From the IMG/VR virus record IMGVR_UViG_3300012355_000007, positions 1 to 23,964 of that record: DNA of 23,964 nt, one strand, 5' to 3'. The DNA is from a virus. Below the pieces are notes generated by a model. It did not search any database. It was given only the letters and a program-made list of their open reading frames with translations, and was not told the DNA's origin. Position numbers and translations under genes: made by a program. Positions 677 to 23,915 of the stretch are shown in pieces. How positions within the stretch are numbered: position 1 is the stretch's first letter; each line of letters opens with the position of its first letter.

Positions 677-893
677 GCCGCCTCCCTGTCTCCGGCCTCG
701 CCCACTTCAAGAGCGCTGCCTTATCGAAGAGCCATCCCCGCCCCACCTTCCGGCAGGGGATCTCGCCCTTCTTCGCTAAGCTATAAATCGTGTTTGGCGC
801 GAGCCGCAGCCAGGCCGCGACCTCCTTGACCTTTGGGCGTTCGGGAAGATCCGCGTCCGTGATTGCTTGCTCTGCTTGCTGCTGCTGCTGCAT
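663..893 (-). CDS. excisionase-family helix-turn-helix protein
   Basis: A 76-residue protein with the MerR-like winged HTH of excisionases and AlpA-type regulators at residues 21-66: KVKEVAAWLRLAPNTIYSLA is the HTH, followed by the wing segment IPCRKVGRGWLFDKAALLKW. Proteins of this family bend or mark DNA as recombination directionality factors or act as small transcription regulators. No integrase is present in the window, so either role is possible. The ATG is preceded by AGGAGGAAAA. Residues 2-6 are five glutamines encoded by one copy of the dispersed GCA repeat placed directly behind the start codon, outside the conserved fold. This suggests the tract was added to an existing gene. Confidence 0.8.
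   Translation of the reverse strand: MQQQQQAEQAITDADLPERPKVKEVAAWLRLAPNTIYSLAKKGEIPCRKVGRGWLFDKAALLKWARPETGRRHETI
863..891 (-). repeat. dispersed GCA repeat, copy 1
   Basis: Five GCA units followed by AGCAGAGCAAGCAA on the minus strand, the sense strand of the excisionase-like gene. Read as poly-glutamine. Confidence 0.75.
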
Positions 894-901
894 TTTTCCT
901 C

Positions 902-1312
902 CTAATGTCTTTCGTACAAGTATCTGCCGAGGCCGAATTTGCTTGCCGCTCGTTTGAGGGCCATCGCCTCGGCGTTACTGCATGCGTCCCCGTAGCCTTT
1001 GGCGTCCGCGTCTTCGCATCCGGTCGCCTCGCGCTCGACTACGCCCTCGGCGCAGGGGATCGAGATCGAGGCGATGACGGTAACGAGATTGCCCACGAGC
1101 TGAACGCCCCGGACGTGGTAAGACCAGCCCGGCGCGAAGTGATCGAGAAACTTAACCGCCGTGTGCCACTCGATGTAGGTAAGCTCGGCGCCGCCCTGCT
1201 TGCGCGTCTTCAGATGGCGCTTCTGCAATGGCTTCGACAGGTCGGCGATGATCTCCTTGATTGAGCGCGGGCCCCCGCGTTCTGTGGATTTCTCTTCGAT
1301 TGGTTCGCTCAT
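902..1312 (-). CDS. Rad52/Rad22-family single-strand annealing protein
   Basis: A 136-residue protein matching the Rad52/Rad22 annealing core. After a charged N-terminus come the helix SIKEIIADLSKPL (18-30), the motif YIEWHTAVKFLDHFAPGWSY (46-65), a beta-strand segment ending VIASISIPC (79-87), and the C-terminal signature GYGDACSNAEAMALKRAASKFGLGRYLYE (107-134). Phage proteins of this family coat single-stranded DNA and pair complementary strands during recombination-dependent replication and repair. The length suits the short phage form. The ATG is preceded by AAGAAGGAATC. It is the best functional marker of this operon and implies that the phage recombines actively, which is relevant to the dispersed repeats nearby. 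Confidence 0.85.
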   Translation of the reverse strand: MSEPIEEKSTERGGPRSIKEIIADLSKPLQKRHLKTRKQGGAELTYIEWHTAVKFLDHFAPGWSYHVRGVQLVGNLVTVIASISIPCAEGVVEREATGCEDADAKGYGDACSNAEAMALKRAASKFGLGRYLYERH

Positions 1313-1359
1313 GATTCCTTCTTGAAAAAAGCCCGCCGCCGATGTTCCCCGTTATCGCT

Positions 1360-1851
1360 CTACGCGATGCGCGCCGGCCTGGGCGTGGCGTACATTTCAA
1401 TCGTCCGGGCCAGGGCCATGCGGAAGCTGTCTCCGTCTCTGACGTCCCGCTCACGCTTTCTCCAGAAGCCGTCTTCGACCGTGAAGTAGTCTCCGTGCTC
1501 GCCTTCGTTGAGCACGCCGGGGAAGAATCCCCAGCAGTCCGAACTGAAGAAGTAGCCGAAGACCGTGTAGCCTTCGGGCGTCGGCAGTTTGACCTCGATT
1601 GGCGCCCGTGCGTAACCGCTCGCGTATTCGCTCGGGATCCAGACCTCCGGCTCTGTCTCCGCATTGAAACTGATGAAGCCGTGAAGCTCTTCCGGGATAA
1701 AGGGCTTGATCGCCTTGATTATCGGCTGCCAGGCCTCGGTATTCTCCTCCCGCTTAGCCTTCGCCAAGCTTTCGGCCTCGGCGGCCTGGGATGCGCGCCT
1801 GTCCGCGAGCGCGGCGCGGGCCTCGTCGATGATTTGCTGAATTGATCTCAT
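1360..1851 (-). CDS. hypothetical protein with N-terminal coiled coil
   Basis: A 163-residue protein with an alanine- and charge-rich helical N-terminus (about 1-45, likely coiled coil), then a mixed alpha/beta domain rich in aromatics and acidic residues (FFSSDCWGFFPGVLNEGEHG, 103-122). I recognise no family. The ATG has an excellent AAGGAGG site. It lies 47 bases upstream of the annealing-protein gene in the same operon, so a link to DNA metabolism is possible by position only. Confidence 0.7.
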   Translation of the reverse strand: MRSIQQIIDEARAALADRRASQAAEAESLAKAKREENTEAWQPIIKAIKPFIPEELHGFISFNAETEPEVWIPSEYASGYARAPIEVKLPTPEGYTVFGYFFSSDCWGFFPGVLNEGEHGDYFTVEDGFWRKRERDVRDGDSFRMALARTIEMYATPRPARIA

Positions 1852-1861
1852 GGTTTCCTCC

Positions 1862-2137: not shown

Positions 2138-2161
2138 GCTTTCCTCCGATTGTTAAGGCGG

Positions 2162-2185: not shown

Positions 2186-2206
2186 GTCGCGCTCCCGAGT
2201 TGACGA

Positions 2207-2704: not shown

Positions 2705-2735
2705 GATTGGTTCCTCCATGTGATTCGATATTCGT

Positions 2736-2763
2736 ATAATATCACAATAATATCAATATGCAA
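2736..2763 (-). promoter_or_regulatory. promoter of the leftward operon with overlapping direct repeats
   Basis: On the minus strand TTGCAT (positions 2763-2758) is followed after 16 bases by TATTAT (2741-2736), about 32 bases before the ATG at 2704. Overlapping it are two copies of ATAATATCA on the plus strand (2736-2744 and 2747-2755), 11 bp apart, one lying on the -10 box: a plausible repressor operator. It is the most AT-rich spot in this part of the window. Confidence 0.6.
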
Positions 2764-2771
2764 GCGAAAAA

Positions 2772-2797
2772 GTGAAGAGAGGTGAAGCGACGTGAAA
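2772..2797 (+). repeat. three 10-bp phased GTGAA iterons
   Basis: GTGAAG at 2772-2777, GTGAAG at 2782-2787 and GTGAAA at 2792-2797: the same hexamer on the same face of the helix, exactly 10 bp apart, just outside the -35 box of the leftward promoter. This suits cooperative protein binding. Confidence 0.5.
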
Positions 2798-2826
2798 AAA
2801 CTGAGGTTGCTAGGTGTAAAAACAGT

Positions 2827-2847
2827 AGCAGCAGCCAAGGCAGGCAA
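2827..2847 (+). repeat. dispersed GCA repeat, degenerate copy 2
   Basis: AGCAGCAGCC followed by AAGGCAGGCAA on the plus strand, in non-coding DNA. Only two full GCA units remain, but the GGCAGGCAA tail is kept, so it looks like a decayed or minimal member of the family. Confidence 0.5.
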
Positions 2848-3536
2848 TCGCCTTGTGTTACTCGTCAAACATCGCCGAAGCCCCTATCCGAATGATTTGC
2901 GGCACACGCCTTGCAGCAACCGCATGGGGGCCAATCTTCAGTCCGAAGTTTTCGAGCGTCAAATCTTCGCAATGCGAATGACGAGAGAAGAATTTCGGCC
3001 TCTATCTTACCGATCACAGGTAGCACAGCCGAAATTCTTCGACCGGCATGAGCATTGCATTTGACGCCGAAAACGAGGACCTATCATGGCCCCCGCGGTT
3101 GCTGCAAAAACGCCGCAGCCGCCTACCCGAGCGCAGGCGCTTCGCCGTAGCGAGCTCCGAATTGTCTCCGGATAGAACTAAAGAAGCCGCGCGCGCCGCA
3201 GGCGATAAAAGACGCGCGTTCCCTTTATCCGAGCGGAGCGTCCTCGCGCAGCGAGCTCCGAATAACTCTCTCGATCCCTTCGCCCACTCGTTTATCACGC
3301 AGGCGCGCGGACGCTCGCGTGTGGCCCAGGCCTTCCGACTCATACACCCAAAGATAAGAGATGCCGCGAAGCCTCACCCTTGCGTGAGCAGCAGGCAATA
3401 TGCCGAGATCCGCCTCACTGGCAGGAAATCAGCGCCCAATGGAGCCGAGAGCAGGTAGGCAGACCGTAGCATTCTGCCACACTCGGGGCTGCTGGCCTGC
3501 CACGGCTCCAATCTGCTGTAAGTCACACGCGCTCTG

Positions 3537-3545
3537 TGCTATAGA
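3537..3545 (+). promoter_or_regulatory. extended -10 promoter giving a leaderless terminase mRNA
   Basis: TGC TATAGA: an extended -10 element whose hexamer ends six bases before the ATG at 3552. Transcription would start at or next to the A of the start codon. No ribosome site precedes this gene, consistent with a leaderless message. No clear -35 box is seen. Confidence 0.45.
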
Positions 3546-3551
3546 TCGCGT

Positions 3552-4088
3552 ATGACTGAAGATATGATTAGAGACATTCCGAGCCAGGAGCCCGACCAAC
3601 TGCCCGATACCATAGCGAGGCCTGAGGGGGATGCAGCTTCCGAATCTCAGGCGATCGCGCAGCGGAGGCTTACGGTTGAGGAGCGTGGGCTGCTGCTGAA
3701 GCTGCTGGTGGCGGGGCAGAGGGAGGGGTTGATTATGCAGGCATTCGCTGCGCTCGGGCTTCTGCCGCCCGCAAGCGCTACGGTTGCGTACTACCGCGAG
3801 AAGTACAGGGAGGAGATCAGGGAGGCGCAGGCGAGGAGGATCGAGCGAGCGATGAGCGAGGGAGTTGCGCTCAAAGCGGAGCGGATTGCGAAGTTGAAGG
3901 AGCACGCCGAACTGCTTGAGGCTATGCGGTTTGCGGCGGACAAGAACGGTAGGATGTGGAACGAGCGGGCTTGGAGGCAGACGCTTGCGGACATTGCCGA
4001 GGAGATGGGGGAGCGCAGGCCTCTGGAGGGTGAGCGGTCGGGTGAGGTTGTGAAGGTCATCATTGGTGTGGATCCGGATAAGGTGTAG
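3552..4088 (+). CDS. putative terminase small subunit
   Basis: A 178-residue protein. Residues 40-80 look like a small helical DNA-binding domain (LTVEERGLLLKLLVAGQREG, then GLLPPASATVAYYREKY). A long helical stretch follows (EEIREAQARRIERAMSEG, LKAERIAKLKEHAELLEAM, about 82-126), then a short C-terminal tail ending in valine- and aspartate-rich residues. This order, a DNA-recognising N-terminus plus an oligomerising helical core, is that of phage small terminases, and the composition resembles TerS-like proteins I know from similar phages. It precedes the large terminase by three accessory genes. The product would recognise the packaging site and hand DNA to the large subunit. The assignment is by fold and context, so moderate. 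Confidence 0.6.
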   Translation: MTEDMIRDIPSQEPDQLPDTIARPEGDAASESQAIAQRRLTVEERGLLLKLLVAGQREGLIMQAFAALGLLPPASATVAYYREKYREEIREAQARRIERAMSEGVALKAERIAKLKEHAELLEAMRFAADKNGRMWNERAWRQTLADIAEEMGERRPLEGERSGEVVKVIIGVDPDKV

Positions 4089-4776: not shown

Positions 4777-4995
4777 ATGAACTCTGCTGAAGAATCAATC
4801 CAACCTGTTGAAAGCAGCAGCAGCAGCAAGCAGGCAAGCAACTCTGTGTTGCTCGATCTGATTGCGCGGAAGTTGAGCCGGATCGAGGTTCGGCCTGATC
4901 TGAGGTCTATAACTCTGGTCATCACGCTCGATCGGCGGGGGCGGCCTCGCACGGTGATCTTCCGCACCGAATCGAAGAGCGAGCTTTCGGCTTGA
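4777..4995 (+). CDS. small hypothetical phage protein
   Basis: A 72-residue protein. The N-terminal 20 residues are polar and probably disordered and include five serines plus KQASN, all encoded by a full copy of the dispersed GCA repeat. The rest (VLLDLIARKLSRIEVRPDLR and two predicted strands) is a small alpha/beta unit with no family that I recognise. I start at MNSAEES (4777) rather than at an upstream in-frame codon, because the leaderless-type promoter ends right before it and the upstream residues are unlike a protein start. It opens the accessory block before the late operon. Confidence 0.6.
   Translation: MNSAEESIQPVESSSSSKQASNSVLLDLIARKLSRIEVRPDLRSITLVITLDRRGRPRTVIFRTESKSELSA
4814..4841 (+). 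repeat. dispersed GCA repeat, copy 3 (full length)
   Basis: Five GCA units followed by AGCAGGCAAGCAA on the plus strand: the most complete copy. Read as SSSSSKQASN. Confidence 0.8.
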
Positions 4996-5193: not shown

Positions 5194-5760
5194 ATGGCTT
5201 CACATTCAATCCGTGTTCTTGGCGTCGTCACAATGCTTCTTGCCTGCTGCTGCTTTTCGATGGCGCAGGACAAAATCAAGCTGTCGGCCTCGGTATTGAT
5301 TACCGAACTTCAGGCGAACCCGGCTGAAGCTCTCGAATATCCGAAGGGCTATTCGATCGATGCGGACGCCCGAATCTTTAGCCGTAGCGGGTGGCGTCTC
5401 GGCGGCGTGTTCAATTTTCAGAAGACATATAACCAAACCGTTTTCGATGATTACCCGATCGAGCTGCCCGCCTCCACATCCAGCAGCGGAATGAGCGCCG
5501 ACATTCAGCGCAACGTCTCGACCTATTCGCTCGGCTTCCAGTTGAGTAAGAAGGCCGGACCGGTCGAGCCTTTCGGCGCGTTCCTTCTCGGTTTCAGGCG
5601 ACTACACGAAGACTTGAATAACGAAATTGTTCGCAAGTACCGACTCGGCGTGGATGTCATTTTTCACGAGAAGTCGAATTTCTTTCTTCGTCCGCTGTTT
5701 GTCGAGTTTGAACCGAGGAGTGGGCGCAAATTCGGCGCGGGCGCGGGGTTCAGGTTCTGA
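5194..5760 (+). CDS. small outer-membrane beta-barrel protein
   Basis: A 188-residue protein. It starts with a clear signal peptide (MASHSIRV..., hydrophobic core VLGVVTMLLACCCFSM, cleavage probably after MAQ near residue 25). The rest is alternating amphipathic strands with glycines and aromatics and ends in GAGFRF, the terminal phenylalanine typical of outer-membrane barrels handled by the Bam complex. Phage-encoded barrel proteins such as Lom and Cor alter the host surface or block superinfection; that role here is inference. AGGGGA precedes the ATG. The triple cysteine in the signal core comes from a GCA-repeat copy read antisense. The mRNA must pass the hairpin at 5124-5172. Confidence 0.7.
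   Translation: MASHSIRVLGVVTMLLACCCFSMAQDKIKLSASVLITELQANPAEALEYPKGYSIDADARIFSRSGWRLGGVFNFQKTYNQTVFDDYPIELPASTSSSGMSADIQRNVSTYSLGFQLSKKAGPVEPFGAFLLGFRRLHEDLNNEIVRKYRLGVDVIFHEKSNFFLRPLFVEFEPRSGRKFGAGAGFRF
5240..5253 (-). repeat. dispersed GCA repeat, copy 4
   Basis: Three GCA units then GGCAA, on the strand opposite to the gene. It lies inside the signal peptide and is read as ACCC. Confidence 0.6.
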
Positions 5761-6063: not shown

Positions 6064-6075
6064 GCAGCAGCAGCA
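6064..6075 (+). repeat. dispersed GCA repeat, copy 5
   Basis: Four GCA units occupy exactly the space between the stop of the Acb2-like gene and the ATG at 6076, where a ribosome site would be expected. Confidence 0.7.
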
Positions 6076-7413
6076 ATGTTTGTCTCTCTTCTCTTTATGG
6101 CGATCGTGACTGTTTCACAGGCGCAACACGTTGAGGCCTCGCCGGAATCGCGAGCCTATCAACCTTTCGGCGCCGCGCTGAAACTGTTCTATTCGAGAGA
6201 GCCTGAAGTCTTGCTCTCAGGTCCGGCTGGGACTGGGAAGAGTAGGGGGCTCTTCGAGAAGCTGCATTTCTGCGCTCAGAATTGGGCAGGCGCTCGTTTT
6301 CTGATCGTCCGCAAGACTCGGGCGTCCTTGACCGAATCCGGGCTTGTGACGTGGGAGGATAAGGTATTGCCGCCTGGTTCTGCCGCGCTTCGAGGAACGA
6401 AGCGCAGGTATCGGCAGATTTACGAATTTCCGAACGGGAGCGCGGTCATTGTCGGCGGGATGGATGAGCCTTCGAGGATCATGAGCACGGAATTCGACAT
6501 GATCCTTGTTCAAGAGGCGACGGAATTGACCGTGGAGGACTGGGAGAATCTGCTTACGCGCCTTCGCAACGGCGTGATGCCGTTTCAGCAATTGATTTCG
6601 GACTGTAACCCGAGTGGTCCTGGCCACTGGCTCAAAAAACGAGCCGATGGGGGTGTTGTCGAGATGCACGAATCGAGGCACGAAGACAACCCTCGGCTCT
6701 ACGATCAGGCGGAAAACGCCTGGACTGAGGAAGGCGCGCAATACATCCAGCTTCTCGAAAATCTCACCGGCGTTCGCAAGTTGCGATTGAGGCATGGGCT
6801 TTGGGCTCAGGCTGAGGGGATGGTGTACGGTGATGTTTGGGATCCGGCGATTCATCTGGTGGATCGCTTTGAAATTCCTGGAGATTGGCCGCGCTTTCTT
6901 TCAGTAGATTTCGGCTATATGAACCCCTTCGTCTGCCAATGGTGGGCTGAGGATCACGACGGCCGGATGTACCGCTACCGGGAGATCTACCGGACCAAGC
7001 GCCTGGTCGAAGATCACGCGAGGGGCATCCTCGACGCCGGCGCCGGAGAACCCGCCCCGGTAGCGGTCGTTTGTGACACGGACGCCGAAGACCGGGCGAC
7101 ACTTGAGCGCCATTTGAAGTTTGGGACTTACCCCGCGGTCAAATCTATCTCAGACGGGATTCAAGCGACGGCCGGCCGGATGAAGCTCGCGGGCGATGGC
7201 AAGGCGCGACTCTTCCTGATGCGTGATTCCCTCCTCGATCGCGACTCTGATCTTCGAGATCGAAAACTCCCGACCTGCACGGAAGAGGAAATTGAGGGCT
7301 ACGTATGGAACCCGAAGAAAGACCTTCCGGTTAAAGAGGACGATCATGGTTGCGACTGCATGAGGTATGCATGCATGTTCTTGGAAAGCTCGAGCAAAGG
7401 AGTTTGGGTTTGA
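6076..7413 (+). CDS. terL: terminase large subunit
   Basis: A 445-residue packaging ATPase-nuclease. Walker A is GPAGTGKS (49-56), Walker B is FDMILVQEATE (140-150, catalytic E147) and the coupling motif SDCNPSGPGHW is at 175-185. The RNase H-like nuclease has D278 in LSVDFGYMNP, the acidic cluster CDTDAEDR (333-340) and D422/D423 in KEDDHGCD. The length is normal for PBSX-like terminases. It drives DNA into the prohead and cuts it. The start is uncertain: residues 1-17 are hydrophobic and signal-like, which makes no sense for a cytoplasmic motor, and no ribosome site precedes the ATG, only four GCA units. Family members usually begin near SRAYQPFGAAL, so a later non-ATG start is possible. 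Confidence 0.92.
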   Translation: MFVSLLFMAIVTVSQAQHVEASPESRAYQPFGAALKLFYSREPEVLLSGPAGTGKSRGLFEKLHFCAQNWAGARFLIVRKTRASLTESGLVTWEDKVLPPGSAALRGTKRRYRQIYEFPNGSAVIVGGMDEPSRIMSTEFDMILVQEATELTVEDWENLLTRLRNGVMPFQQLISDCNPSGPGHWLKKRADGGVVEMHESRHEDNPRLYDQAENAWTEEGAQYIQLLENLTGVRKLRLRHGLWAQAEGMVYGDVWDPAIHLVDRFEIPGDWPRFLSVDFGYMNPFVCQWWAEDHDGRMYRYREIYRTKRLVEDHARGILDAGAGEPAPVAVVCDTDAEDRATLERHLKFGTYPAVKSISDGIQATAGRMKLAGDGKARLFLMRDSLLDRDSDLRDRKLPTCTEEEIEGYVWNPKKDLPVKEDDHGCDCMRYACMFLESSSKGVWV

Positions 7414-9569
7414 CCCTTTGGGATCGAATTAAATTCGCAATCAGTCTCCCGCGCTCGCTCGCGCGCGGCGGTGATTTCGATCTCAAAACGCTCTTTGAAA
7501 AACAGCGCGTCGGGATCAATGGGCTTGACCCTTTTCCTCGCTTTGATAAACAGAAGTTGTTTACGTGGAGCAGGGAATCTGACCTTGCTTATTCCTGTAT
7601 CCTGAAAATTATCGAAGCCGCTCAGGACCCGGATTTAATCGTCGAGCGGCGCAAGAATCGCATTCGCCCCTGGGAGCCTGAGCCCGGGCATGCTCTGCGG
7701 CAACTGCTGATGCGCCCGAATCCCGAAATGAGCCAGGCCGAATTCTTGGGTGCGTGGCTCGGCAGTGAAGAGGCCTGCGGCGAGTTCTTCGCGGAGATCG
7801 AGCGCGATAAGCGGGGCCGGCCTCGCCACCTTTGGCCACTCGATCCCACCTGTATCCATCCCGCTTCAATCATCTACCCGGGTTCAGGGAAGGAGGGTTG
7901 GATATGGCGCGGTTACTCCTATGCTGAAGAAGTCCATCTTTTGCCGCGTGACGTCTTCTACTCACTCAGGCGCGATCTTCAAGCGCCCTGGATGCCGCTC
8001 TCTCCGCTGCGCGTGGCGCTGGGGAGCGTCGAGGCGGACGCGATGCAGACGATGTTCGTTCGAAGCTTCTTCAAAAACTCGGGCGTCCCTTCGGGTGTGG
8101 TTAAGATCAAAGGCCGGACCTTGAAGGATGAAGAGGCGGAAGGGATTCGCCAGCGCTGGCTCCGTCGTTACGGCGCCGGTGGCAAATTCCACGTCGGCCC
8201 CGCGGTGATGGATGAAAACGCCGAATACCAGAAAGTCGGAAGCGACCTCTCCGAGATCGAAGGTGGGACCCTGCGCGCGCAGAATGAGGCGCGGATCTGT
8301 GGCGTTTTTGGCGTCCCTCCGCTGCTTGTGAGCGCATACGTCGGTCTGCTCTACGTCAACCAGCGCGCGAGCGCGAAAGAGTCACAGGTTGATTTCTGGG
8401 CCAATAAGATGAGCCCGACGTTCAAGCGGCTGAGATCGCGGCTTACCTGGTCGTTGCTCCTCGAATTTGAGGATGAGGGCGCCATCCGCGATGAGCTCAT
8501 CCGGCTCAACTGGGATATGAGCCAGGTCGTCGCGCTTCAGGAATCGATGAGCGAACGCTCGATGCGCGCGCGCGAAGATTTCCGAGTAGGCGGATTGACC
8601 TTGAATGAGTTCCGCGCCGTCCTGGGCATGGCGCCGACTCCTTCCGGTGATTACTACCTCCGGCCCGTCAATCGCCTGCCCGTGACGCCTGAGATCGTGG
8701 CGGAGCAATTGCTTGCTGCTGCTGCTGCTACTTCAGCTTCTGTCAGTTTGATTCTTTCCGGCTCGCGTGATCCGAAAGCGCATGAAGAGGGCGGGGAAGA
8801 GAAGCGGCTTATCTTGCGGAAGGTCTTCGATTGGGATGGGCTGGAATGCGGCAGGGAGCCGAGTGACTTTGAGCGGCGGATTAACGTGAAGGCTCTTGGC
8901 AATCTTATGGGCAGCAGCAGCAGCAATCTTTTGTCCGTCTTGCTGCCGGCGCGCAGCTTGCTGATTTCTGATGCGGTATCGAAACTGCGCGGCCTCTTGG
9001 TCTCGGACCTCCACAAGCTGACTCTCGATTGGCCCTCCGACGCCTGGGCCGAACTGCGCGGCATTCTCGATGACGTGACGCTCGCCGGCCGTAATGATTT
9101 CCTGGCTGAGTTGCGCGCGCAGGGCGAGCCGGAATCGCGGCTCATTCCTCCTTTGGCCGCGCTGGCCAGCCGCCTCGACCTGATCGCTGATGCGGCTGTC
9201 TCCCGCCTGGTCAACGACGTGCAGGCGCGCGCGGCCGGGATCGCCACGCATCTTGCGCCGCTTGTCTCTCCCGTTGATTTGCCCGCGCGTGTAGAGGCGC
9301 AGCTTAATCAATTAAGCGACGCTACGACGAGGGGGATTGCTCAGGAGGCCGCGCATCAGGCTTTGGCTTTGGGCAGGGAAGTCGAGGCGGCGAATTGGAG
9401 CTTTGGCGGATTTATCTATTCGGCTGTGCTCGACAGGAACACTTGCCAGGTCTGCCGCTCGCTCGACGGATTTACGGCCGAGCTCCTGGCCGAAATGCCC
9501 ACGGTTCCGAATCCGAATTGCGGCGAAGGCTTCGGGCGCTGCCGCTGCGCGATTTTGCCCGTGTTTTGA
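7410..9569 (+). CDS. portal protein with C-terminal MuF-like domain
   Basis: A 719-residue fusion. The first about 460 residues are an HK97-type portal: WDRIKFAISLPRS at the start, a central FVRSFFKNSGVPSGVV region, then GVPPLLVSAYVGLLYVNQRA and the clip/crown helices ending LNEFRAVLGMAP. The last about 50 residues are a Mu F-like minor head protein end with a zinc-type pattern (DRNTCQVCRSLDG, C679/C682, then NCGEGFGRCRC, C704/C711/C713). The portal ring is the DNA channel. I start at the TTG at 7410 because AAAGGAG lies seven bases upstream and it overlaps the terminase stop; in-frame TTG 7350 and ATG 7371 are alternatives. Two GCA repeats sit in the linker between the two domains, giving poly-A and poly-S. 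Confidence 0.88.
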   Translation: MTLWDRIKFAISLPRSLARGGDFDLKTLFEKQRVGINGLDPFPRFDKQKLFTWSRESDLAYSCILKIIEAAQDPDLIVERRKNRIRPWEPEPGHALRQLLMRPNPEMSQAEFLGAWLGSEEACGEFFAEIERDKRGRPRHLWPLDPTCIHPASIIYPGSGKEGWIWRGYSYAEEVHLLPRDVFYSLRRDLQAPWMPLSPLRVALGSVEADAMQTMFVRSFFKNSGVPSGVVKIKGRTLKDEEAEGIRQRWLRRYGAGGKFHVGPAVMDENAEYQKVGSDLSEIEGGTLRAQNEARICGVFGVPPLLVSAYVGLLYVNQRASAKESQVDFWANKMSPTFKRLRSRLTWSLLLEFEDEGAIRDELIRLNWDMSQVVALQESMSERSMRAREDFRVGGLTLNEFRAVLGMAPTPSGDYYLRPVNRLPVTPEIVAEQLLAAAAATSASVSLILSGSRDPKAHEEGGEEKRLILRKVFDWDGLECGREPSDFERRINVKALGNLMGSSSSNLLSVLLPARSLLISDAVSKLRGLLVSDLHKLTLDWPSDAWAELRGILDDVTLAGRNDFLAELRAQGEPESRLIPPLAALASRLDLIADAAVSRLVNDVQARAAGIATHLAPLVSPVDLPARVEAQLNQLSDATTRGIAQEAAHQALALGREVEAANWSFGGFIYSAVLDRNTCQVCRSLDGFTAELLAEMPTVPNPNCGEGFGRCRCAILPVF
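8709..8728 (-). repeat. dispersed GCA repeat, copy 6
   Basis: Five GCA units followed by AGCAA, on the strand opposite to the gene. Read as LLAAAAA in the portal-MuF linker. Confidence 0.75.
8911..8926 (+). repeat. dispersed GCA repeat, copy 7
   Basis: Five GCA units and a final A on the sense strand, read as SSSSN. It is only 180 bases from copy 6 and in the opposite orientation, so the pair forms an inverted repeat. Confidence 0.7.
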
Positions 9570-10408: not shown

Positions 10409-12007
10409 ATGTGGAAAAAGAAATTCGAGTCCTCGCGGATCGCCTGGGAAGCGGCGATGAAGGCCGCGAAGACTTACGCCTCCGAGCTCGAAGGCAAGGC
10501 CGAGACGAGCCCCGAAGAAAGGGCGCGCCTCGATCAGTTAATCGCAGATGTTAAGGCGGCGAAGGCCGAATACGACCGCCTCCGCCCGCTCGCCGAAATG
10601 GAGGAGCAGCAAGAGGCGCTCGACGTGGCGCAGGGCCGCAAAACCCGTGACAACGTGGCGCCGGGCATCCTGACCCCGAACTCTCGCAATCAGGCGTCCC
10701 GCCCGCTGAAGGTCAGCAATATTTTTAAGGCGACGTTTGCGGCAGGGAGCTCTCACAACCAGGCCATCTTCAGGGAGTACGCTAACGAAGAATATTCGAT
10801 GTCTGAGCGCCTGAAATCGCTCGGTTACTCTTCCGAGACGATGGGCGGCTGGCTCTTCCCTCTGGGCGACGAACTCCTGATCGAGCCTGTATATGAGTCT
10901 GAGGAGAAACGGGCTGCGTTCGCCGCGCTCAGGCAGGAGGTCAAGGAGCGGCTGCGGATTGCTTACGACCCCGGCGAGATCGGCTGGATGATTAAGCGAA
11001 ATCCCGAACTCGCCTCAGACCTCGGCCTTGAACACAAAGATCTGGCCGTGGGAGATGATACGCTCGGCGGTTACCTCATCCCGGTAGCGCAGGCCGGCCG
11101 CGTCATAGACCTGCTGCGCAACCGGTCTGTGATGATGCGCGCGGGCGCGGCCGAGTTCGCGCTTCCGCCCTCCGGCAACCTGACTTTGCCGCGACTGGGT
11201 TCGGACCCGGCTTTCGCTTACACCGATCCCGACACTCAGACCGACATGGCGACCTCGAACCTCGGAACGGGCGTCGTTCGCCTCCAGGCTAAATCGCTGC
11301 GCGGCGCCGTGACGATACCGAATGACCTTATTCGGTATTCCTCGCCTTCAGTCGAGCTCCTCGTCAGATCGGCTCTCGCGTCGAAAGCAGCCGTCGCTGA
11401 AGACTTCGCCTTTCTCGAAGGGCCAGGGAGCAGCATTGCGCCTAAGGGCTTACTCAATTACCCGCTCTCCGCGGCTGAGACTCCCGCGATTAACAAGGTC
11501 ACTCTCCACGTGGCTGGGCCGGGTTCCGAGGCGAATGGCGATACGTTCATTCCTGAAGACGTGGCGAAGATCATCGGCCTCTATTACTCGGGGAATGATG
11601 ATGATCCGCCTACCGGTTGGATTATGCGGCCCATGATGTGGTCGGCTATTCAAAACCGGCGCGCCGACGCCGTGACTGCCGGGGACGCCAAGGGGCCTTT
11701 TGTTTTCTGGACCGATCGGGGGTCGAACCGGTCTGAGATTCCGCAGTCCCTGGGCGGTTTTCCGGTTTATCCCTCGATGCAGGTTAATAAGACCCGTGCT
11801 GAGGGCGGCTCTTCCACGCTGACTTACATCCTCTTCGGGAATTTCCGCAGGATGCAGATCGGGCGCTCGGGCGTCATCGAGCTCGCCGTCTCGGAGCATG
11901 TCAAGTTCTTGCAGGATAAAACGATTATTAGAGCCATTCTGCGCTCTGATATGGGCCTCGAACACGAAGAGTCTTTCGTGCTCACTGACACGGTTCTTGA
12001 ATCCTGA
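10409..12007 (+). CDS. major capsid protein (HK97 fold)
   Basis: A 532-residue HK97-type capsid protein. The charged helical N-terminus (about 1-75) is a delta/scaffold domain to be removed by the protease. The mature fold begins near GGYLIP (220-225), with the N-arm and E-loop region (SVMMRAGAAEF, LPRLGSDPAFAYTDPD), the P-domain helix (SSPSVELLVRSALASKAAVA) and FLEGPGSS. The segment before GGYLIP is unusually long (about 215 residues) and contains a second similar motif, MGGWLFP, near residue 145. The ATG at 10409 has GGAG at the right distance; an in-frame TTG five codons upstream does not. Its place directly after the protease is canonical. Confidence 0.9.
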   Translation: MWKKKFESSRIAWEAAMKAAKTYASELEGKAETSPEERARLDQLIADVKAAKAEYDRLRPLAEMEEQQEALDVAQGRKTRDNVAPGILTPNSRNQASRPLKVSNIFKATFAAGSSHNQAIFREYANEEYSMSERLKSLGYSSETMGGWLFPLGDELLIEPVYESEEKRAAFAALRQEVKERLRIAYDPGEIGWMIKRNPELASDLGLEHKDLAVGDDTLGGYLIPVAQAGRVIDLLRNRSVMMRAGAAEFALPPSGNLTLPRLGSDPAFAYTDPDTQTDMATSNLGTGVVRLQAKSLRGAVTIPNDLIRYSSPSVELLVRSALASKAAVAEDFAFLEGPGSSIAPKGLLNYPLSAAETPAINKVTLHVAGPGSEANGDTFIPEDVAKIIGLYYSGNDDDPPTGWIMRPMMWSAIQNRRADAVTAGDAKGPFVFWTDRGSNRSEIPQSLGGFPVYPSMQVNKTRAEGGSSTLTYILFGNFRRMQIGRSGVIELAVSEHVKFLQDKTIIRAILRSDMGLEHEESFVLTDTVLES

Positions 12008-12091
12008 TCTTCTTTTGGTACGGTGGCGCTGTTTCTCTTCGATTGGGCGCCGCCACTCGAACCACAGTTCAAACTGTAAGGGAGTTTTTCA

Positions 12092-12481: not shown

Positions 12482-12723
12482 TGCGAATTGTTTTCCTGAA
12501 AGACCTGCATGCGTCCCATCTCGGCTTCGACCCCGGGATGGGATTGCTCTATCCGGCCGGCGCCATTGTTGATGACTGCCTGCCGCACGTTGAAGAGAAA
12601 CTTCTTCGCGAAGGCTTCGCAATTCCTGAAAAGGATTGGCAGCAGCAGCAAGCAGGCAAGGCAAAGCAGCATCCGCCCGATAACAAGCGGGGCAGGGGAG
12701 CGCGTGAGGATAAGGCGAAGTAA
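12481..12723 (+). CDS. small head-region protein with GCA-encoded glutamine tract
   Basis: An 80-residue protein. Residues 1-53 look like a compact domain of the kind found downstream of capsid genes (MRIVFLKDLHA ... YPAGAIVDDCLPHVEEKLLREGFA). Residues 54-80 are a disordered basic tail (QQQQAGKAKQH, then PPDNKRGRGAREDKAK), and the junction between them is a full GCA-repeat copy. The ATG overlaps the stop of the previous gene (TGATG). The function is unknown. Confidence 0.6.
   Translation: MRIVFLKDLHASHLGFDPGMGLLYPAGAIVDDCLPHVEEKLLREGFAIPEKDWQQQQAGKAKQHPPDNKRGRGAREDKAK
12639..12670 (+). repeat. dispersed GCA repeat, copy 8 (long)
   Basis: Three GCA units, AGCAGGCAAGGCAAAGCAGC on the plus strand. 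Read as QQQQAGKAKQ at the boundary of a folded domain and a disordered tail. Confidence 0.8.
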
Positions 12724-13091: not shown

Positions 13092-13773
13092 TAAGGCTCA
13101 GGCAGTCGAAATCGGCCCCCGGGCTCCTCGTCGCGCCCTTCACATAGGTCTTCCCTCTCATCACGATGGAATCGTCGCCGACGTGGGTAACGAGATTTGG
13201 AATCTGCGCCCCATAGGCTTTGATGTTGAGCCGGAAGAAAAAGCCTCGCAGCATCGAATCGCTTCCGTTTAGCCCGCGAATCCGCTGTGGCTGGGCCGTG
13301 AAATCGAAGGCGAGCAGTTTTTCTACCGTCTCGCGCCGGGTTACGAAGCATTGAGTGTAAAGAAATCTCCTGACGGGGAGTGGCGCGATAAGGCGTGCCT
13401 TTTGCCACTCCTCCCCGATTCTCGGATCGAAGAAGCTCACGAGCGGCCAGGCATCAGGGATTTCCACCCTCCGCGCGTACTCGACCAGGTTCCGGCAGGG
13501 AATTATGTCGTCTTCGCAGTAGAGCAGCCTTTCGGCGCCCGACTCGATGAAGGCCTCGAAGACGGCTCGCATCTGCAGGCGAGATCCGCGGCGCTCACGA
13601 GCCGGGTGAGACTGCAGTTTCCAACCTGGCGGGATTTCGGGAAGGTATGCGTCGGCTGTGACGAGCGGAATCGTTTCGCTCGATAGTTGCTTCTGAAGGG
13701 CGGCGAGCGTGGCGGGTAGATAGTTGGCGTCTGTCAGGCGCGGCGCTGTAATGACGCTGACCATGATTTTCAT
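13051..13773 (-). CDS. putative glycosyltransferase, antisense cargo gene in the late operon
   Basis: A 240-residue protein with a GT-A look. It starts with a strand-loop SVITAPRLT (6-14); ERLLYCEDDII (81-91) contains an acidic EDD likely to hold the metal and nucleotide sugar (DxD-equivalent); LVSFFDPRIG follows at 111-120; GLNGSDSMLRGFF (167-179) and LVTHVGDDS (194-202) form an acceptor/C-terminal catalytic region. There is no signal peptide, so it is cytoplasmic. The target could be phage DNA, a virion protein or host surface sugars. It is the only minus-strand gene between 3552 and 17265. A TATAAT box ends six bases before the ATG at 13773, so it has its own leaderless-type promoter, like a moron. 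Confidence 0.7.
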   Translation of the reverse strand: MKIMVSVITAPRLTDANYLPATLAALQKQLSSETIPLVTADAYLPEIPPGWKLQSHPARERRGSRLQMRAVFEAFIESGAERLLYCEDDIIPCRNLVEYARRVEIPDAWPLVSFFDPRIGEEWQKARLIAPLPVRRFLYTQCFVTRRETVEKLLAFDFTAQPQRIRGLNGSDSMLRGFFFRLNIKAYGAQIPNLVTHVGDDSIVMRGKTYVKGATRSPGADFDCLSLIKAHTSPKHPTKI

Positions 13774-13779
13774 TGGGTA

Positions 13780-13785
13780 ATTATA
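13780..13785 (-). promoter_or_regulatory. -10 box of the glycosyltransferase gene
   Basis: Minus-strand TATAAT followed by TACCCA and then the ATG at 13773. A weak TTGCCC lies 19 bases upstream. The box overlaps the first codon of the divergent adaptor gene. Spacing to the ATG is identical to that at 3552 and 4777. Confidence 0.5.
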
Positions 13786-15149
13786 TGAGTTGGACCTATA
13801 CGCCGGGCAATGTCGGTACTGTCGATCGCGATTGGATTCGCCTTCAGGTCGGCGACACCGATACGAGCGATCAGTTGTTGAGTAACGAAGAGCTCGACGG
13901 AATTCTTACGCGCGAGGCCCGGCGCGACCTGGCGGCCGTGCGCGCCGCGGAGGAGATTGCGGCCAAGTTCTCCCGCTTCGGCTCTCAGGAAGTCTCGCGC
14001 GCCTATGCCACGCTTGCCGATCGGCTCAACGCGTACCTTCAGATCAGTTCCGGGACGTGGAGCTATTCAGGCAATCCGAACACTACTACCCGCGACAAGG
14101 TTCGCTTCTTCATCGGCGACACGGACCCCGGCCGGCAATGGCTCAACAACGCCGAGATCGATGAGGCCCTCGTGGTCGAGCCCCGAATCGAGTTCGCTGC
14201 CGCGATCTGCGTTGAGGCGATGGTCGGGAAGATGAAGCCCCGGGGCGCCGGAGATACGACGCGCGGCGACATCGCAATGATCGACCGTCTGATGCAGCTT
14301 GCCGAGAAACTGCGGATGCGAGGCCGAGTGGCTACCGGAACCTGGACTTACTCAGGCAACCCGGCCTCGTCGCCCCGCAATATGGTCCGCTTCTTGATCG
14401 GCGACATTGAGCAGGGAGATCAGCAAATCAACGACGCCGAGATTGACGCGATCCTTGCCGTCGAGGGCCGGCCGCACTTCGCGGCTGCGACCTGTGCGCG
14501 AACTCTTTCGATCAACTACGCGCTGCACCGCAAGGCCGAAAAGGCTCAATATTACGGCGCCCTCGCTGCGCAGCTTGAACTTCACAAAGAGATTCATGCC
14601 GGCGCCTGGACTTACTCCGGCGACCCGAACGCTTCGGCCCTGGATAAAGTTCGCTTCCTCGTCGGCGACGTCAACCCGGACAGCAAGCTGCTCAACAACG
14701 CCGAGATCACGGAGGCTTTGCAGGATGAACCGCGGCCGCATTTCGCCGCCGCTCGCTGCGCTGAGGCTCTCGCCGCGCGCTTCGCTACGCAAATTGACGC
14801 CGGCGCGCAATCCGTCAGGTCGTCGCGTTATCTCGAGCTCGCGAAGCGACTGAAAGATCAAGCCGAGTTGGTACAGACCGGGGCATGGACCTATAACGCG
14901 GCTGACACTGAGACCGCTCGCAATTGGGTGCGCTTGCGGATCGGAGACGCGGATTTGAACCGTCAGCTTTTGAATGACGCCGAGCTTGATTCCTTCATTG
15001 CGCTCGGTACTAATAGGGCTGCCGCTGCTGCTGCTGCTGCAAAATCCCTTGCCGCTCGATACGGATCGATGGGAGATGAAAAACGATCGAAGCATTTCGC
15101 CGATCTATCGGCCGATCTTTACGCCGAAGGGGGGCCGGATTACTTATGA
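13785..15149 (+). CDS. head-tail adaptor protein with five tandem adaptor domains
   Basis: A 454-residue protein composed of five copies of one unit of about 88-95 residues. They begin at W3, W92, W187, W275 and W368, each with [ST/A]W[TS]Y, then VR[FL]xxGD (for example VRFFIGDTDPG), then LLN[ND]AE[IL]D, then a helix (FAAAxCAEALAARF) and a second helix (YLELAKRL). One such unit is the usual size of a phage head-tail connector of the HK97 gp6 / SPP1 gp15 type, which forms a ring under the portal. Five in one chain is unusual. In the fifth unit the helix has become a run of eight alanines through a GCA-repeat copy. I start at the ATG at 13785; no ribosome site is evident. Confidence 0.8.
   Translation: MSWTYTPGNVGTVDRDWIRLQVGDTDTSDQLLSNEELDGILTREARRDLAAVRAAEEIAAKFSRFGSQEVSRAYATLADRLNAYLQISSGTWSYSGNPNTTTRDKVRFFIGDTDPGRQWLNNAEIDEALVVEPRIEFAAAICVEAMVGKMKPRGAGDTTRGDIAMIDRLMQLAEKLRMRGRVATGTWTYSGNPASSPRNMVRFLIGDIEQGDQQINDAEIDAILAVEGRPHFAAATCARTLSINYALHRKAEKAQYYGALAAQLELHKEIHAGAWTYSGDPNASALDKVRFLVGDVNPDSKLLNNAEITEALQDEPRPHFAAARCAEALAARFATQIDAGAQSVRSSRYLELAKRLKDQAELVQTGAWTYNAADTETARNWVRLRIGDADLNRQLLNDAELDSFIALGTNRAAAAAAAAKSLAARYGSMGDEKRSKHFADLSADLYAEGGPDYL
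15018..15040 (-). repeat. dispersed GCA repeat, copy 9
   Basis: Five GCA units then GCGGCAGC on the strand opposite to the gene. Read as poly-alanine in the helix of the fifth adaptor domain; the tail motif is missing. Confidence 0.6.
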
Positions 15150-17416: not shown

Positions 17417-17573
17417 TTTTCTCGCCTTTTACCTGACTTTGTATCAATGGAGTTCTGGCGGGCCCGCCGCCGCGCCGTGTTTGCGAGGGAGCCCGCAAGC
17501 CTTAGGGAAGGCGGATATAATAACTGTATCGATATGGTTCGCGTCTGATAAGGAATCTTACGTAATAAAAAGG

Positions 17574-17613
17574 GAAGCCGCCAGTAACTCGAAAGCTATT
17601 GGCGGCTTCTTTT
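17574..17613. terminator. bidirectional intrinsic terminator
   Basis: GAAGCCGCCA (17574-17583) pairs with TGGCGGCTTC (17600-17609). TTTT follows on the plus strand and an A-run precedes it, giving a U-run on the minus strand. It probably ends the leftward operon of 17701-23915 and catches any plus-strand readthrough. Confidence 0.8.
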
Positions 17614-17700
17614 GTGGCCTTGCGGCCTTTTTGCGTCTGCCTCAGTTGGGCTGCAAAAAATCTTGCGGTCGTGTGACCTGATCGAAGACTAACACACTTG

Positions 17701-19391: not shown

Positions 19392-19925
19392 TTATAACCG
19401 GGCCATTACCTCAAGCTCCTTTTCCGGGGGGAGCTTTCCCCGCCAGGAACTTGTTATAACTCCGTCCTTGTTGACCAGTAGAAGTGTCGGCGTGCCCTGA
19501 ACTCCGAGCGAGTCGGGGCGTGCCTGCCTGACGTCATCGACGGCTATTCCAAGATCGCCGAGGTATTTCCTTCCGGCCTCTATTGATTGAGGCAGGACGG
19601 CGATTAAGCGTGTGCTTCCCTTTCGCGCATTCGTCATAGCTTTGTAAAAGGACGCGCTCTCCGTGCAAAAGTGACATCCTGTCGAGAGCACGAGCACGAG
19701 CGTTTGATCGCCCTTCTTCCAATCCACGTCTGGCAAGGTGATTGCCTTTCCGGTTAACCCGGCGTCGGCGGTCTGGCCGGCAGCGGGCTTGTTGTTGACC
19801 GCGGCGCCCTTCGATTGGGAGCCGGTGAGAAGATGGTTTTTGACTAAGACCGCGCCGATCAGGGCGGCGACGATGATTATAGCAATCTGTGATGCGAGTT
19901 CAATTTTTTGGGCTACTTTGTTCAT
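19392..19925 (-). CDS. membrane-anchored thioredoxin-like protein
   Basis: A 177-residue protein. A transmembrane anchor (about 12-30) and a glycine/alanine-rich linker lead to a thioredoxin-fold domain with the active site STGCHFCTES (C84-x2-C87) and the cis-proline in GVQGTPTLLLV. This matches TlpA/redoxin-type proteins facing the periplasm, which reduce or exchange disulfides. The next genes downstream encode exported proteins and the last is cysteine-rich, a plausible substrate. GGAGG precedes the ATG, and the ATG overlaps the stop of the preceding gene (ATGA), tying this host-like trio to the phage operon. Confidence 0.75.
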   Translation of the reverse strand: MNKVAQKIELASQIAIIIVAALIGAVLVKNHLLTGSQSKGAAVNNKPAAGQTADAGLTGKAITLPDVDWKKGDQTLVLVLSTGCHFCTESASFYKAMTNARKGSTRLIAVLPQSIEAGRKYLGDLGIAVDDVRQARPDSLGVQGTPTLLLVNKDGVITSSWRGKLPPEKELEVMARL

Positions 19926-20179
19926 GCCACCTCCGCGAGTTGTTCAGCCGCCGCGGCCAGCACGCCCACGACCGGCGATAATAAGTCTTCGATCTTCTTG
20001 CCGATCTCTGCGACCTCGGGATCAGTCCCCCGAAGCTGTAAGGTTCTGACCCAATGAAGCGCCTCTAGAATCTTGTCCGGCACATCTGCGACATCTAGGG
20101 CGCCCGCCCGTTGCCTGCTGCTGCTGCTGCTTTCTTCTGAACCTGAGAAGTTTAAAACTGATGATTCCCCGCTGGACAT
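19922..20179 (-). CDS. small hypothetical protein with serine tract
   Basis: An 85-residue protein. The first 25 residues are polar and include SSSSSRQRAG, encoded by a GCA-repeat copy; residues 28-85 are two amphipathic helices (VPDKILEALHWVRTLQL and IEDLLSPVVGVLAAAAEQLA). No family is recognised. AAGGAG precedes the ATG, and its stop overlaps the start of the thioredoxin-like gene, both good signs of a true gene. The two-helix form could be an oligomerisation unit; that is inference. Confidence 0.6.
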   Translation of the reverse strand: MSSGESSVLNFSGSEESSSSSRQRAGALDVADVPDKILEALHWVRTLQLRGTDPEVAEIGKKIEDLLSPVVGVLAAAAEQLAEVA

Positions 20180-20511: not shown

Positions 20512-20524
20512 GAGCCCCCCGCCT

Positions 20525-21637: not shown

Positions 21638-21647
21638 CTTCGCCTCC

Positions 21648-22934
21648 TTACCTGTCAATCGCCGCTTCGACGGGTGAGAGCAATTCAAGCTCTGCTGCAA
21701 CGTCTGGCGCGCCTCGCGAAAAGGTGTTACATCCGCAGCCTTTCTTTTTGCAAAAAGTTCCCTCCCTGTGATCGGCATATTTGTGCTTACACCAGCACAG
21801 AATGCGAGGATCCGGGCGCAGCAGCGCGCCCTCCTTCACGGCGCCTGGGCCTGCCTGCTGCTGCTTCCAGGCTCGAACCTGCTCATCCTTCAGCTTCGAG
21901 AGTTCGATCTTGCGCGCGTGGCTTGACCAATTGCGCTTATAGTGGGCTCTCGCATAGGCCTCATAATCCTCGAAGCGGAGTGCGTTCGACTTTGGGCATT
22001 CCTTTGTATGCGCGCCGTCAATCCGCCCGCACTCTGAGCAGCGGGGGGCGGTGAAGTCATCTTGTAATGGCGTCCCTTCGCCCAAAATGTAATGCTCGCA
22101 GTCGGGCAGATGGCCGCCCTTCGTATCGCAGTCGGGGCAGTGGTAGTACTGGCACTTCGCGCAGACGCCGCATTGCCCGTCCGCGTCGTCGCCTACGTGA
22201 TAGTCGCGCTGATGACCACAGGAGCATGGCGCCGTGTAATATTTGTTTAGCTCTTCCACGCTCAGCGCCGCGCGCCATTTGGCCTGATAGTCGCCTTCGC
22301 TCTTTTGATCGCCGGAGAATTCCCCGGTTCGATTTCTGCGCCACGTCGCAACGGCCTCCCTATGAAGGCGCTCGCGCTCTTCCTCGCTGCTCTGCCGCCA
22401 TCGCTCGGTCTCATCTCGCTCCTCAGCTCGCGCGTCTTCTTTGGCTGGCCTGAAGTCCTTGCAGTCGCACATTATTGCCTGGCAATTGCAGGGCTCATCT
22501 TCGTTAACGTGCCTCCGCCTGTTATGTCCACAGACGCATTTTTCTTCGAAGAATTCCGCGCCTGTCTCCTCCGGATCTGCTGCCTGCTGCTGCTGCTCCT
22601 CGATCAATTCAAATGCTTTTTCCTTGAGCTCACGGGCTCGTCTGTCGCGCTGTGAGAATGTCCCGATCGGCTCTTCTTCATCGTCCTCGTCTTTGGTCTT
22701 CACTTTCACATTCTCTTGATTGCTCAATTGAATATTCAGGCCGTTGTAACTGTAAAAAGTGCGCCCCTTGTTTTTCATCACTTGAATGAGCGCGCTCTTG
22801 GCCTCCGCTTCCAGCTTCGCGAGCGCGCAGCGTTGATCTCTGGCTTCTCGATAAAGCTCCGCCGCCTGCTCGATCTCCGGCACGTCGCGCGCTTCGCAGC
22901 CCGGCAGCGGCTCCTGATTGGCTTTCTTTCCCAT
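21648..22934 (-). CDS. multi-zinc-finger protein with repeated CxCxH modules
   Basis: A 428-residue protein. Residues 15-80 form a helical N-terminus ending in a small strand unit (KGRTFYSYNGLNIQL). Then come zinc-binding modules: CVCGHNRRRH ... CNC ... CDCKDF (133-161); CSCGHQRDYH ... CGVCAKC ... CPDC (237-269); CSECG ... H ... C (299-313); CWCKHKYADH ... C ... CGCNTF (380-405). Modules one and four share C-x-C-x-H-x4-H ... C-x-C-x2-F; module two is a variant. Between them are charged helices. Such proteins may bind nucleic acid or act as hubs; the function is unknown. Two GCA-repeat copies give poly-Q in linkers. The ATG at 22934 has GGAGG and overlaps the previous stop (TAATG). Confidence 0.7.
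   Translation of the reverse strand: MGKKANQEPLPGCEARDVPEIEQAAELYREARDQRCALAKLEAEAKSALIQVMKNKGRTFYSYNGLNIQLSNQENVKVKTKDEDDEEEPIGTFSQRDRRARELKEKAFELIEEQQQQAADPEETGAEFFEEKCVCGHNRRRHVNEDEPCNCQAIMCDCKDFRPAKEDARAEERDETERWRQSSEEERERLHREAVATWRRNRTGEFSGDQKSEGDYQAKWRAALSVEELNKYYTAPCSCGHQRDYHVGDDADGQCGVCAKCQYYHCPDCDTKGGHLPDCEHYILGEGTPLQDDFTAPRCSECGRIDGAHTKECPKSNALRFEDYEAYARAHYKRNWSSHARKIELSKLKDEQVRAWKQQQAGPGAVKEGALLRPDPRILCWCKHKYADHREGTFCKKKGCGCNTFSRGAPDVAAELELLSPVEAAIDR
21851..21864 (-). repeat. dispersed GCA repeat, copy 11
   Basis: Three GCA units then GGCAG on the sense strand. Read as KQQQAG in a linker of the multi-zinc protein. Confidence 0.6.
22577..22596 (-). repeat. dispersed GCA repeat, copy 12
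   Basis: Four GCA units then GGCAGCAG on the sense strand. Read as QQQQAA just before the first zinc module. Confidence 0.65.
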
Positions 22935-23173
22935 TATTTCCTCCGTTTCCGATGTTGATTGGCCTGCGGGCACGTCGAAAAGTGACTTGCATACGGCCCG
23001 AGTAACTGAAGGCGCGTTCCGTCTCCGATATAGAGCGTCTTTAAAACCTTGAAACCTGAGTTGAGCGGCGCGGCGCTGCCGGCTTGAGTCTTCGCCCAAA
23101 TGATCGGCTGTCCGCAGGTCTTACACTTCTTCGGATGGGCGAGCTCCTCGGCGTCTACCGGAAAAATCCACAT
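22934..23173 (-). CDS. small zinc-ribbon phage protein
   Basis: A 79-residue protein with KKCKTCGQPIIWAKTQAGS (one CxxC knuckle) and, near the end, SHFSTCPQANQHRKRRK. This arrangement, a CxxC with I-W two residues after it and a C-terminal HFxTCPQA followed by basic residues, is common in small phage replication-region proteins; the last His and Cys probably complete the zinc site. It starts in a TGATG overlap with the preceding gene; a TTG one codon earlier is an alternative. AAGGGGG lies upstream. Confidence 0.7.
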   Translation of the reverse strand: MWIFPVDAEELAHPKKCKTCGQPIIWAKTQAGSAAPLNSGFKVLKTLYIGDGTRLQLLGPYASHFSTCPQANQHRKRRK

Positions 23174-23514
23174 CAAGCGCCCCCTTTCTGCGAGGGGATG
23201 GCTCTTTCTTCGATCGAGGCGCAGGCCAGATCAATCGCTTTGCCATGATCCAGGCCTTTAACGCGCCGGTTATACCAGACCATCGCCCCGAATCGCATGC
23301 TGAACCACAAGCTGCGGCGCCATAGTTTGAGCGCGCGCCAGGTGTAGCGCAGGATCGCGCGAGGCCTCGGCGCGAATACTTCGAGGACTAAATACGCCTC
23401 CGCCTCGATCAGATACCGCCCGCGCTCGCCCAATTTATCCGCGAAGACCGCGAGGCGCGTGGCGCGTGTGATTAGTAGATTGTTTTTCTCTTCGGCGGTT
23501 AGATGTTCTTGCAT
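23173..23514 (-). CDS. hypothetical phage protein
   Basis: A 113-residue basic, tryptophan-rich helical protein (YTWRALKLWRRSLWFSMRFG in the middle, then VWYNRRVKGLDHGKAIDLAC). The middle is amphipathic with many arginines, so membrane or nucleic-acid contact is possible. I recognise no family. The ATG at 23514 has GGAGG at the right distance; the longer frame upstream runs into the previous gene. It is part of the tightly packed leftward operon. Confidence 0.65.
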   Translation of the reverse strand: MQEHLTAEEKNNLLITRATRLAVFADKLGERGRYLIEAEAYLVLEVFAPRPRAILRYTWRALKLWRRSLWFSMRFGAMVWYNRRVKGLDHGKAIDLACASIEERAIPSQKGGA

Positions 23515-23528
23515 TGTTGACCTCCATT

Positions 23529-23915
23529 TCAGGCGGCGCCGTTCCCCGGTCTGCAATTCGGGCAGGGTCTCGCGCCGCGGCTTTGGTTTGTTTCGTTGGT
23601 TACTATCTCCCAGCCCGTCCCCGAGCAGGCCGCGCAGTATTCGCCTGCCTGAGTGCGGCGCGGCTCCGCTTTTTGCAGCAGCCATCTGTCAATCGCGGCG
23701 TCCTCTTCGCCTGATCTCCACAGGCGCCGGGCCAGGCCTCCGGGGTTTCTGATGTGCGGCTTGGTTTCTATAACGAACTGCTCGACGTCGGCGAACGAGT
23801 AAACTGAAAGATGGCCTTCATTAAAATCATTTGCAGCAGCAGCAGCAGGCAAAGCAGGCAAACCGTCACTGCCGCCTGCTTGCTGCTGCTGCAATGACGG
23901 TTCATGACGGTTCAT
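23529..23915 (-). CDS. phage protein with C-terminal zinc motif and two GCA-repeat tracts
   Basis: A 128-residue protein. Residues 1-32 are low complexity from two GCA-repeat copies in opposite orientation (SLQQQQAGG and PALPAAAAAN). Residues 40-85 are a small helical domain (YSFADVEQFVIETKP, ARRLWRSGEEDAAIDRWLL). Residues 93-122 carry YCAACSGTGWEIV ... ARPCPNCRPG, a CxxCxGxG...CxxC DnaJ-type zinc site common in phage replication proteins. The start is uncertain: the ATG at 23915 lies among direct repeats with only a distant AAGGAA; a GTG at 23957 in frame is the alternative. It enters from the right edge of the window. Confidence 0.6.
   Translation of the reverse strand: MNRHEPSLQQQQAGGSDGLPALPAAAAANDFNEGHLSVYSFADVEQFVIETKPHIRNPGGLARRLWRSGEEDAAIDRWLLQKAEPRRTQAGEYCAACSGTGWEIVTNETNQSRGARPCPNCRPGNGAA
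23833..23861 (+). repeat. dispersed GCA repeat, copy 13 (double tail)
   Basis: Five GCA units then GGCAAAGCAGGCAA, on the strand opposite to the gene. Read as PALPAAAAAN. It faces copy 14, so the two can form a long hairpin. Confidence 0.75.
23874..23892 (-). repeat. dispersed GCA repeat, copy 14
   Basis: Four GCA units then AGCAGGC on the sense strand of the gene. Read as LQQQQAGG. Inverted with respect to copy 13, 12 bases away. Confidence 0.75.

Follow-up and report, generated by a model that had tools for sequence, protein, structure and literature searches.

What is the nature of the short GCA repeats that recur throughout the sequence of a tailed soil phage, on both strands and both within and between genes? 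The sequence considered here, hereafter the window, is an entire IMG/VR record of 23,964 bases (GC ~58%) and is possibly a phage fragment; it carries terminase, portal, protease, and major capsid genes as well as a Rad52-family gene. A preliminary description of this DNA had reported a dispersed GCA family at 14 places. The family is real: 13 of these places, correctly located, hold uninterrupted (GCA)3-5 runs, while the remaining one, at 2827, is a degenerate copy. The tracts and associated features are listed below by position, strand, and content.

863-891, minus: (GCA)5-AGCA-GAGCA-AGCAA, immediately following the start codon (ATG) of the HTH/excisionase-like gene 663-893 (minus); frame Q
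902-1312, minus: Rad52-family single-strand annealing protein (Pfam Rad52_Rad22, 5e-12; PHROG Erf-like); candidate partner of the tracts
2827-2847, plus: degenerate copy, GTAGCAGCAGCCAAGGCAGGCAA / GCAGCAGCCAAGGCAGGCAA; non-coding
3388-3398, plus: short copy, GCAGCAGGCAA; missing from the earlier list
4814-4841, plus: (GCA)5-AGCA-GGCA-AGCAA, near the 5′ end of gene 4780-4995 (plus); frame S
5238-5253, minus: (GCA)3-GGCAAGA, antisense in the signal peptide of gene 5194-5760 (plus); frame C
6064-6075, plus: (GCA)4, filling the gap that separates a stop codon (TGA) from the terminase ATG
8709-8728, minus: (GCA)5-AGCAA; frame A, antisense to the portal gene that contains it
8911-8926, plus: (GCA)5-A; frame S of the portal gene
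12639-12671, plus: (GCA)4-AGCA-GGCA-AGGCA-AAGCA-GCA, near the 3′ end of gene 12481-12723 (plus); frame Q
15025-15040, minus: (GCA)5; frame A, antisense, within gene 13773-15149 (plus) for the repeat protein
20111-20130, minus: (GCA)5-GGCAA, near the 5′ end of gene 19922-20179 (minus); frame S
21850-21864, minus: (GCA)3-GGCAGG, in gene 21648-23099 (minus); frame Q
22576-22596, minus: (GCA)4-GGCA-GCA, in gene 21648-23099 (minus); frame Q; segment absent from the relative G068
23833-23862, plus: (GCA)5-GGCA-AAGCA-GGCAAA; within a replication-type gene, in its linker, where it forms one half of an inverted pair; frame A, antisense
23875-23892, minus: (GCA)4-AGCAGG, frame Q; other arm of the inverted pair
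23894-23927, minus: three direct GAACCGTCAT repeats, adjoining the inverted pair; iteron-like

The number of tracts is far above that expected by chance. The motif GCAGCAGCA occurs 31 times in the window when overlaps are counted, in 13 separate tracts, whereas dinucleotide shuffles gave 0.32 and none reached 31, which bears out the proposed excess over shuffled sequence. Among ten trinucleotide classes, AGC/GCT contributes 14 runs of at least 10 bases, and the next class, CCG, only 4. Both orientations and several frames are represented, as had been described, with Q (five) and S (three) in sense, A (three) and C (one) in antisense, and one intergenic copy. Codon bias, or selection at the amino-acid level for runs of Q, S, and A, might be invoked here, given that CAG and AGC are frequent codons in the window and that the same amino acids are usually preserved at retained sites. 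Nevertheless, a synonymous-codon shuffle preserving both proteins and codon usage left a mean of 3.5 genic tracts (maximum 7) against the 12 observed, a contrast unaffected by the one of 31 gene boundaries that was a base off (4779), and shuffling the codon order of the window genes left 0.37. Moreover, the Ala runs are spelled with GCT, which makes up only 120 of the 714 Ala codons, non-coding copies exist, and one site kept in three related phages is read in different frames. Selection of this kind alone is therefore a very improbable explanation, in agreement with the preliminary description; the tracts are a DNA-level repeat class and not codon bias.

At least three mosaic relatives of the window also carry tracts. 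The 21-mer GCAGCAGCARGCARGCARGCA was found in only 3 of 2.9 million viral contigs, namely those of the window phage, L050, and L052, and a looser 18-mer yielded 30 stretches, from whose records 13-mer counts led to two further phages, G068 and G102. L050 is a 14-kb fragment whose head module is common with the window at 67-75% identity; G068 (39 kb, with an integrase) has early genes with ~70-75% nucleotide identity to the window and a different head module; and G102 (45 kb; L213-L215) has scattered genes in common with it at about 30-46% at the amino-acid level (tblastx segments, 35-57%; full range given as 31-58%). Two candidates were rejected: L052 (G003), an unrelated contig whose long irregular GGCAGGCAGCA minisatellite at 11989-12190 is a different thing, and L203, in which CAG-type tracts are abundant on a single strand only and were read as protein-driven. 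The short pattern GCAGCAGCAGGCAA, for which the matches listed were mostly single-copy contigs, served as loose background only. An assembly artefact is unlikely because near-identical records from two other samples carry identical tracts, gapless over 17.4 and 10.3 kb.

The density of AGC-class runs 10 bases or longer is 5.8 per 10 kb in the window, 7.7 in L050, 3.3 in G068, and 1.8 in G102, against 0.45 in control phages, among which the highest single contig has 1.7. G102 is thus barely above the top control, and its membership therefore rests on composite tracts. When the four tract-bearing phages were pooled (122 kb), runs of four or more GCA numbered 24, and none was present in 336 kb from phages whose terminases are related, while GCA doublets were at background (2.8% of single GCA runs vs 2.7% in controls). 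The excess begins at three GCA units, and the tracts accordingly form a discrete class. In searches for the host of the window phage, the 18-mer was absent from all 61 Chloroflexota genomes searched, and a scan of genome contigs showed only a 53% terminase match in an Anaerolineae MAG. An acidobacterial host would be our guess from the style of the genes. A literature search for such GCA tracts in phages or acidobacteria found nothing, and an Rfam search gave no match.

The feature shared by the tracts is a grammar. In the 51 composite tracts that we parsed across the four phages, (GCA)3-8 comes first and is followed by GCA units with one or more extra purines between them, usually ending in A. 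The spacing from one GCA to the next is 3 bases in 142 cases, 4 in 88, 5 in 16, and 6 in 8, with the 3-base spacing lying 5′ of the 4-base spacing in 42 tracts and the opposite order in 2. Following (GCA)2+, all 46 spacer bases scored are purines (G or A), and this count was made without the parsing rule, which itself admits only purines inside a tract. The base 3′ of the final GCA is A in 34 of the 51, and C is rare among the four bases preceding composite tracts. In the window, a purine-GCA unit directly follows the run in 10 of 13 tracts and precedes it in none. Only some of the window copies carry the exact AGCAGGCAA tail, and the common trait is this grammar rather than any fixed sequence.

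Composite tracts are often found within signal peptides and linkers, and 21 of the 51 lie near gene ends, where 11.5 would be expected from the automatic gene calls. Close pairs are also more frequent than expected (7 vs ~2.3), and six of the seven are inverted. By our own count over the four phages, about 26 tracts are sense and 17 antisense, and this near parity weakens the suggestion of an RNA-level signal; the antisense copies likewise speak against Hfq-binding ARN repeats. Two further candidates considered for the motif were EcoP15I sites (CAGCAG) and DnaG priming at CTG. Orientation is not uniform across the four genomes. In G102, 10 of 11 composite tracts are on one strand whatever the gene direction, and the other three phages differ from this.

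How well do the tracts persist between relatives? Seven of the 11 alignable window sites are kept and four are degenerate or absent, and tracts are retained where nucleotide identity falls to ~67%. For instance, the tract at 863 is also found straight after the ATG in G068 (36546), the signal-peptide tract at 5238 has its counterpart at L050 795, and that at 8709 occupies the same portal codons at L050 5019, with five GCT units in the window and eight in L050. Site 12639 is kept at L050 8510, the inverted pair 23833/23875 is kept at 2300/2331 in G068 and 852/898 in G102, and site 6064 corresponds to a GCA-rich tract before the terminase ATG at L050 1326. The terminase frame itself has a signal-peptide-like start in both phages (window 6076-6150, MFVSLLFMAIVTVSQAQ...; L050 1360-1440, MRFVFSLLMSIVIASA...). 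Of the other sites, 4814 is degenerate at the equivalent place in L050, 21850 is interrupted by one codon in G068, 8911 is absent from L050 with the length unchanged, and 22576 is absent from G068 inside a larger gap. Conversely, the tract at L050 6573 is absent from the orthologous window site. At 8911 and L050 6573, the two variable sites examined closely, the tract-less ortholog has replaced sequence and no clean empty site. Thus, the orthologue comparison that had been suggested revealed substantial retention but not, at these two sites, precise presence or absence, which, together with a grammar that is shared when the sequence is not, speaks against a mobile repeat of fixed sequence.

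Several other features were seen in these genomes. The window gene 13773-15149 (plus) encodes a protein with five PHROG 1732 domain repeats and its L050 ortholog has one, and gene 21648-23099 (minus) encodes three similar Cys/His segments (CxCGHxxxxH...CxC), which the G068 ortholog either lacks or has in altered form. Behind the L050 terminase (2743-3715) lies an inserted HNH endonuclease gene; next come a GCA tract and another copy of the terminase 3′ end. Outside clear genes, 123 bases of the window (17539-17661) are 80% identical to G068 7717-7836; this stretch, which has no Rfam match, is possibly a regulatory or RNA element.

The inverted GCA pair is present in the window, G068, and G102, in the linker of a gene that has no match in Pfam or NCBIfam and that we infer to be of replication type from its layout and the iteron-like GAACCGTCAT repeats. 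In G102, the first arm reads serine instead of glutamine; the arm is in another frame, and therefore the nucleotide motif has been kept or renewed across a frame change. Hairpins of the pair have z values of -5.5 in the window and -5.0 and -3.4 in the other two phages, whereas the one single tract tested showed no folding (z +0.56). The GAACCGTCAT repeats lie beside the inverted pair and an AT-rich stretch, within the gene linker, and the region looks like a lambda-O-type origin. G068 has one AACCGTCAT at the position equivalent to the GAACCGTCAT repeats.

We tentatively favor an explanation in which the tracts would be an array of cis-acting DNA sites for phage replication or annealing-type recombination, and would be retained at any place where the encoded protein or the gene border can accommodate them; the inverted pair in the replication-type gene linker would be the copy most clearly functional. 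We prefer it because the tracts form a discrete class, have a polarity, persist, and include a kept inverted pair. Furthermore, module sharing differs among the phages (head-side between the window and L050, mainly early genes between the window and G068), yet tracts are found in all four. Against a cis-acting array, the freely varying unit number and tail resemble simple-sequence expansion more closely than they do a fixed binding site, tracts at 4814, 8911, 21850, 22576, and L050 6573 are absent or degenerate in one phage, and neither the differing orientations nor the unfolded single tract fits it well. It is nearly as likely, and quite possible, that the tracts are functionless products of CAG/CTG triplet expansion by slippage and hairpin repair in the phage group or its host, with purine duplications producing the tail, and that they persist at places such as linkers, termini, and signal peptides, where a run of Q, S, A, L, or C is tolerated by the protein. 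The variable unit number, with (GCT)5 against (GCT)8 at one orthologous site, would follow from this, as would the enrichment at gene ends, the many copies in signal peptides and linkers, and site 15025, which is expanded within an Ala-rich helix. Expansion accounts less well for a strong enrichment confined to the AGC class, the lack of excess doublets, the strict polarity with purine-only spacers, and the persistence of sites in diverged relatives; in addition, tract length was invariant across near-identical records, of which there were only three.

A third possibility, which we consider unlikely, is that the tracts are recombination linkers, spread and homogenized by annealing or template switching between copies with the help of the phage annealing protein and providing short homologies for gene or domain exchange. 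This would fit the L050 tract at the edge of the HNH insertion, beside the second terminase 3′ end copy, the two tracts near zinc-domain segments lacking in G068, the replacement rather than clean insertion at variable sites, and the presence of a Rad52-family gene in both the window and G068. Nevertheless, L211 has a 54% identical Rad52-family protein without composite tracts, the 14-kb L050 fragment has tracts and no Rad52 match, the copies have no master sequence in common, and the few junction examples are also explained by insertion tolerance. The Rad52-family protein as the cause of the tracts, one of the earlier proposals, is thus not supported. Far less probable still is a polymerase origin, in which an enzyme would extend broken or annealing DNA ends by GCA units in one direction, slipping on purines, much as telomerase adds irregular repeats; the tracts would then be the scars left in this phage group, polar and located at breaks, at the borders of genes, and where domains join, and fold-back synthesis would account for the inverted pairs.

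If the tracts are functional, as in the cis-acting array that we favor, they would constitute a phage element that is defined by a grammar (GCA at a spacing of 3-4 bases, purine spacers, and one polarity) instead of a fixed word, and that shows up in the encoded proteins as runs of Q, S, A, and L. A mutational origin would mean that directional CAG/CTG expansion occurs outside eukaryotes, in this phage group. In either case, four mosaic phages with orthologous sites both present and absent offer a testable system.

Comparison with known systems shows partial resemblances. Chi is a fixed word of 5-8 bases, and Chi-type hotspots are, like the GCA tracts, short asymmetric motifs over-represented on both strands; in contrast, the tracts are not a fixed word and are not linked to any recombination enzyme. 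With CAG/CTG microsatellites they share a tandem repeat unit, a unit number that varies between homologs, as in (GCT)5 vs (GCT)8, and homopolymeric amino-acid runs, but differ in their strict polarity, their one-sided purine-only 4-base units, their many short dispersed loci, and their lack of a doublet excess. MITE and REP elements would be expected to have a fixed unit and precise empty sites; here, the copies have no unit in common, and sites 8911 and L050 6573 show replacement with no clean empty site. As for dispersed cis sites, many copies within and between genes are common to related phages here, but the grammar is conserved while sequence and length vary, in place of a fixed short consensus. 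Mycobacteriophages offer further parallels. Those of cluster O, such as Corndog, have more than 30 copies of a 17-bp repeat of unknown function between and inside genes, with some indels through recombination between copies (PMC4351075). The GCA tracts are likewise short, numerous, and scattered between and within genes; nevertheless, the Corndog repeat is a fixed, dyad-symmetric 17-mer, whereas the tracts are asymmetric, variable in length, and built from GCA. Stoperators in cluster A and start-associated sequences in cluster K are also dispersed short cis sites (PMC4351075), but these are tied to the direction of transcription (stoperators, which are bound by a repressor) or to translation starts, while the GCA tracts, whose orientation does not follow transcription, are sense and antisense and often intragenic.
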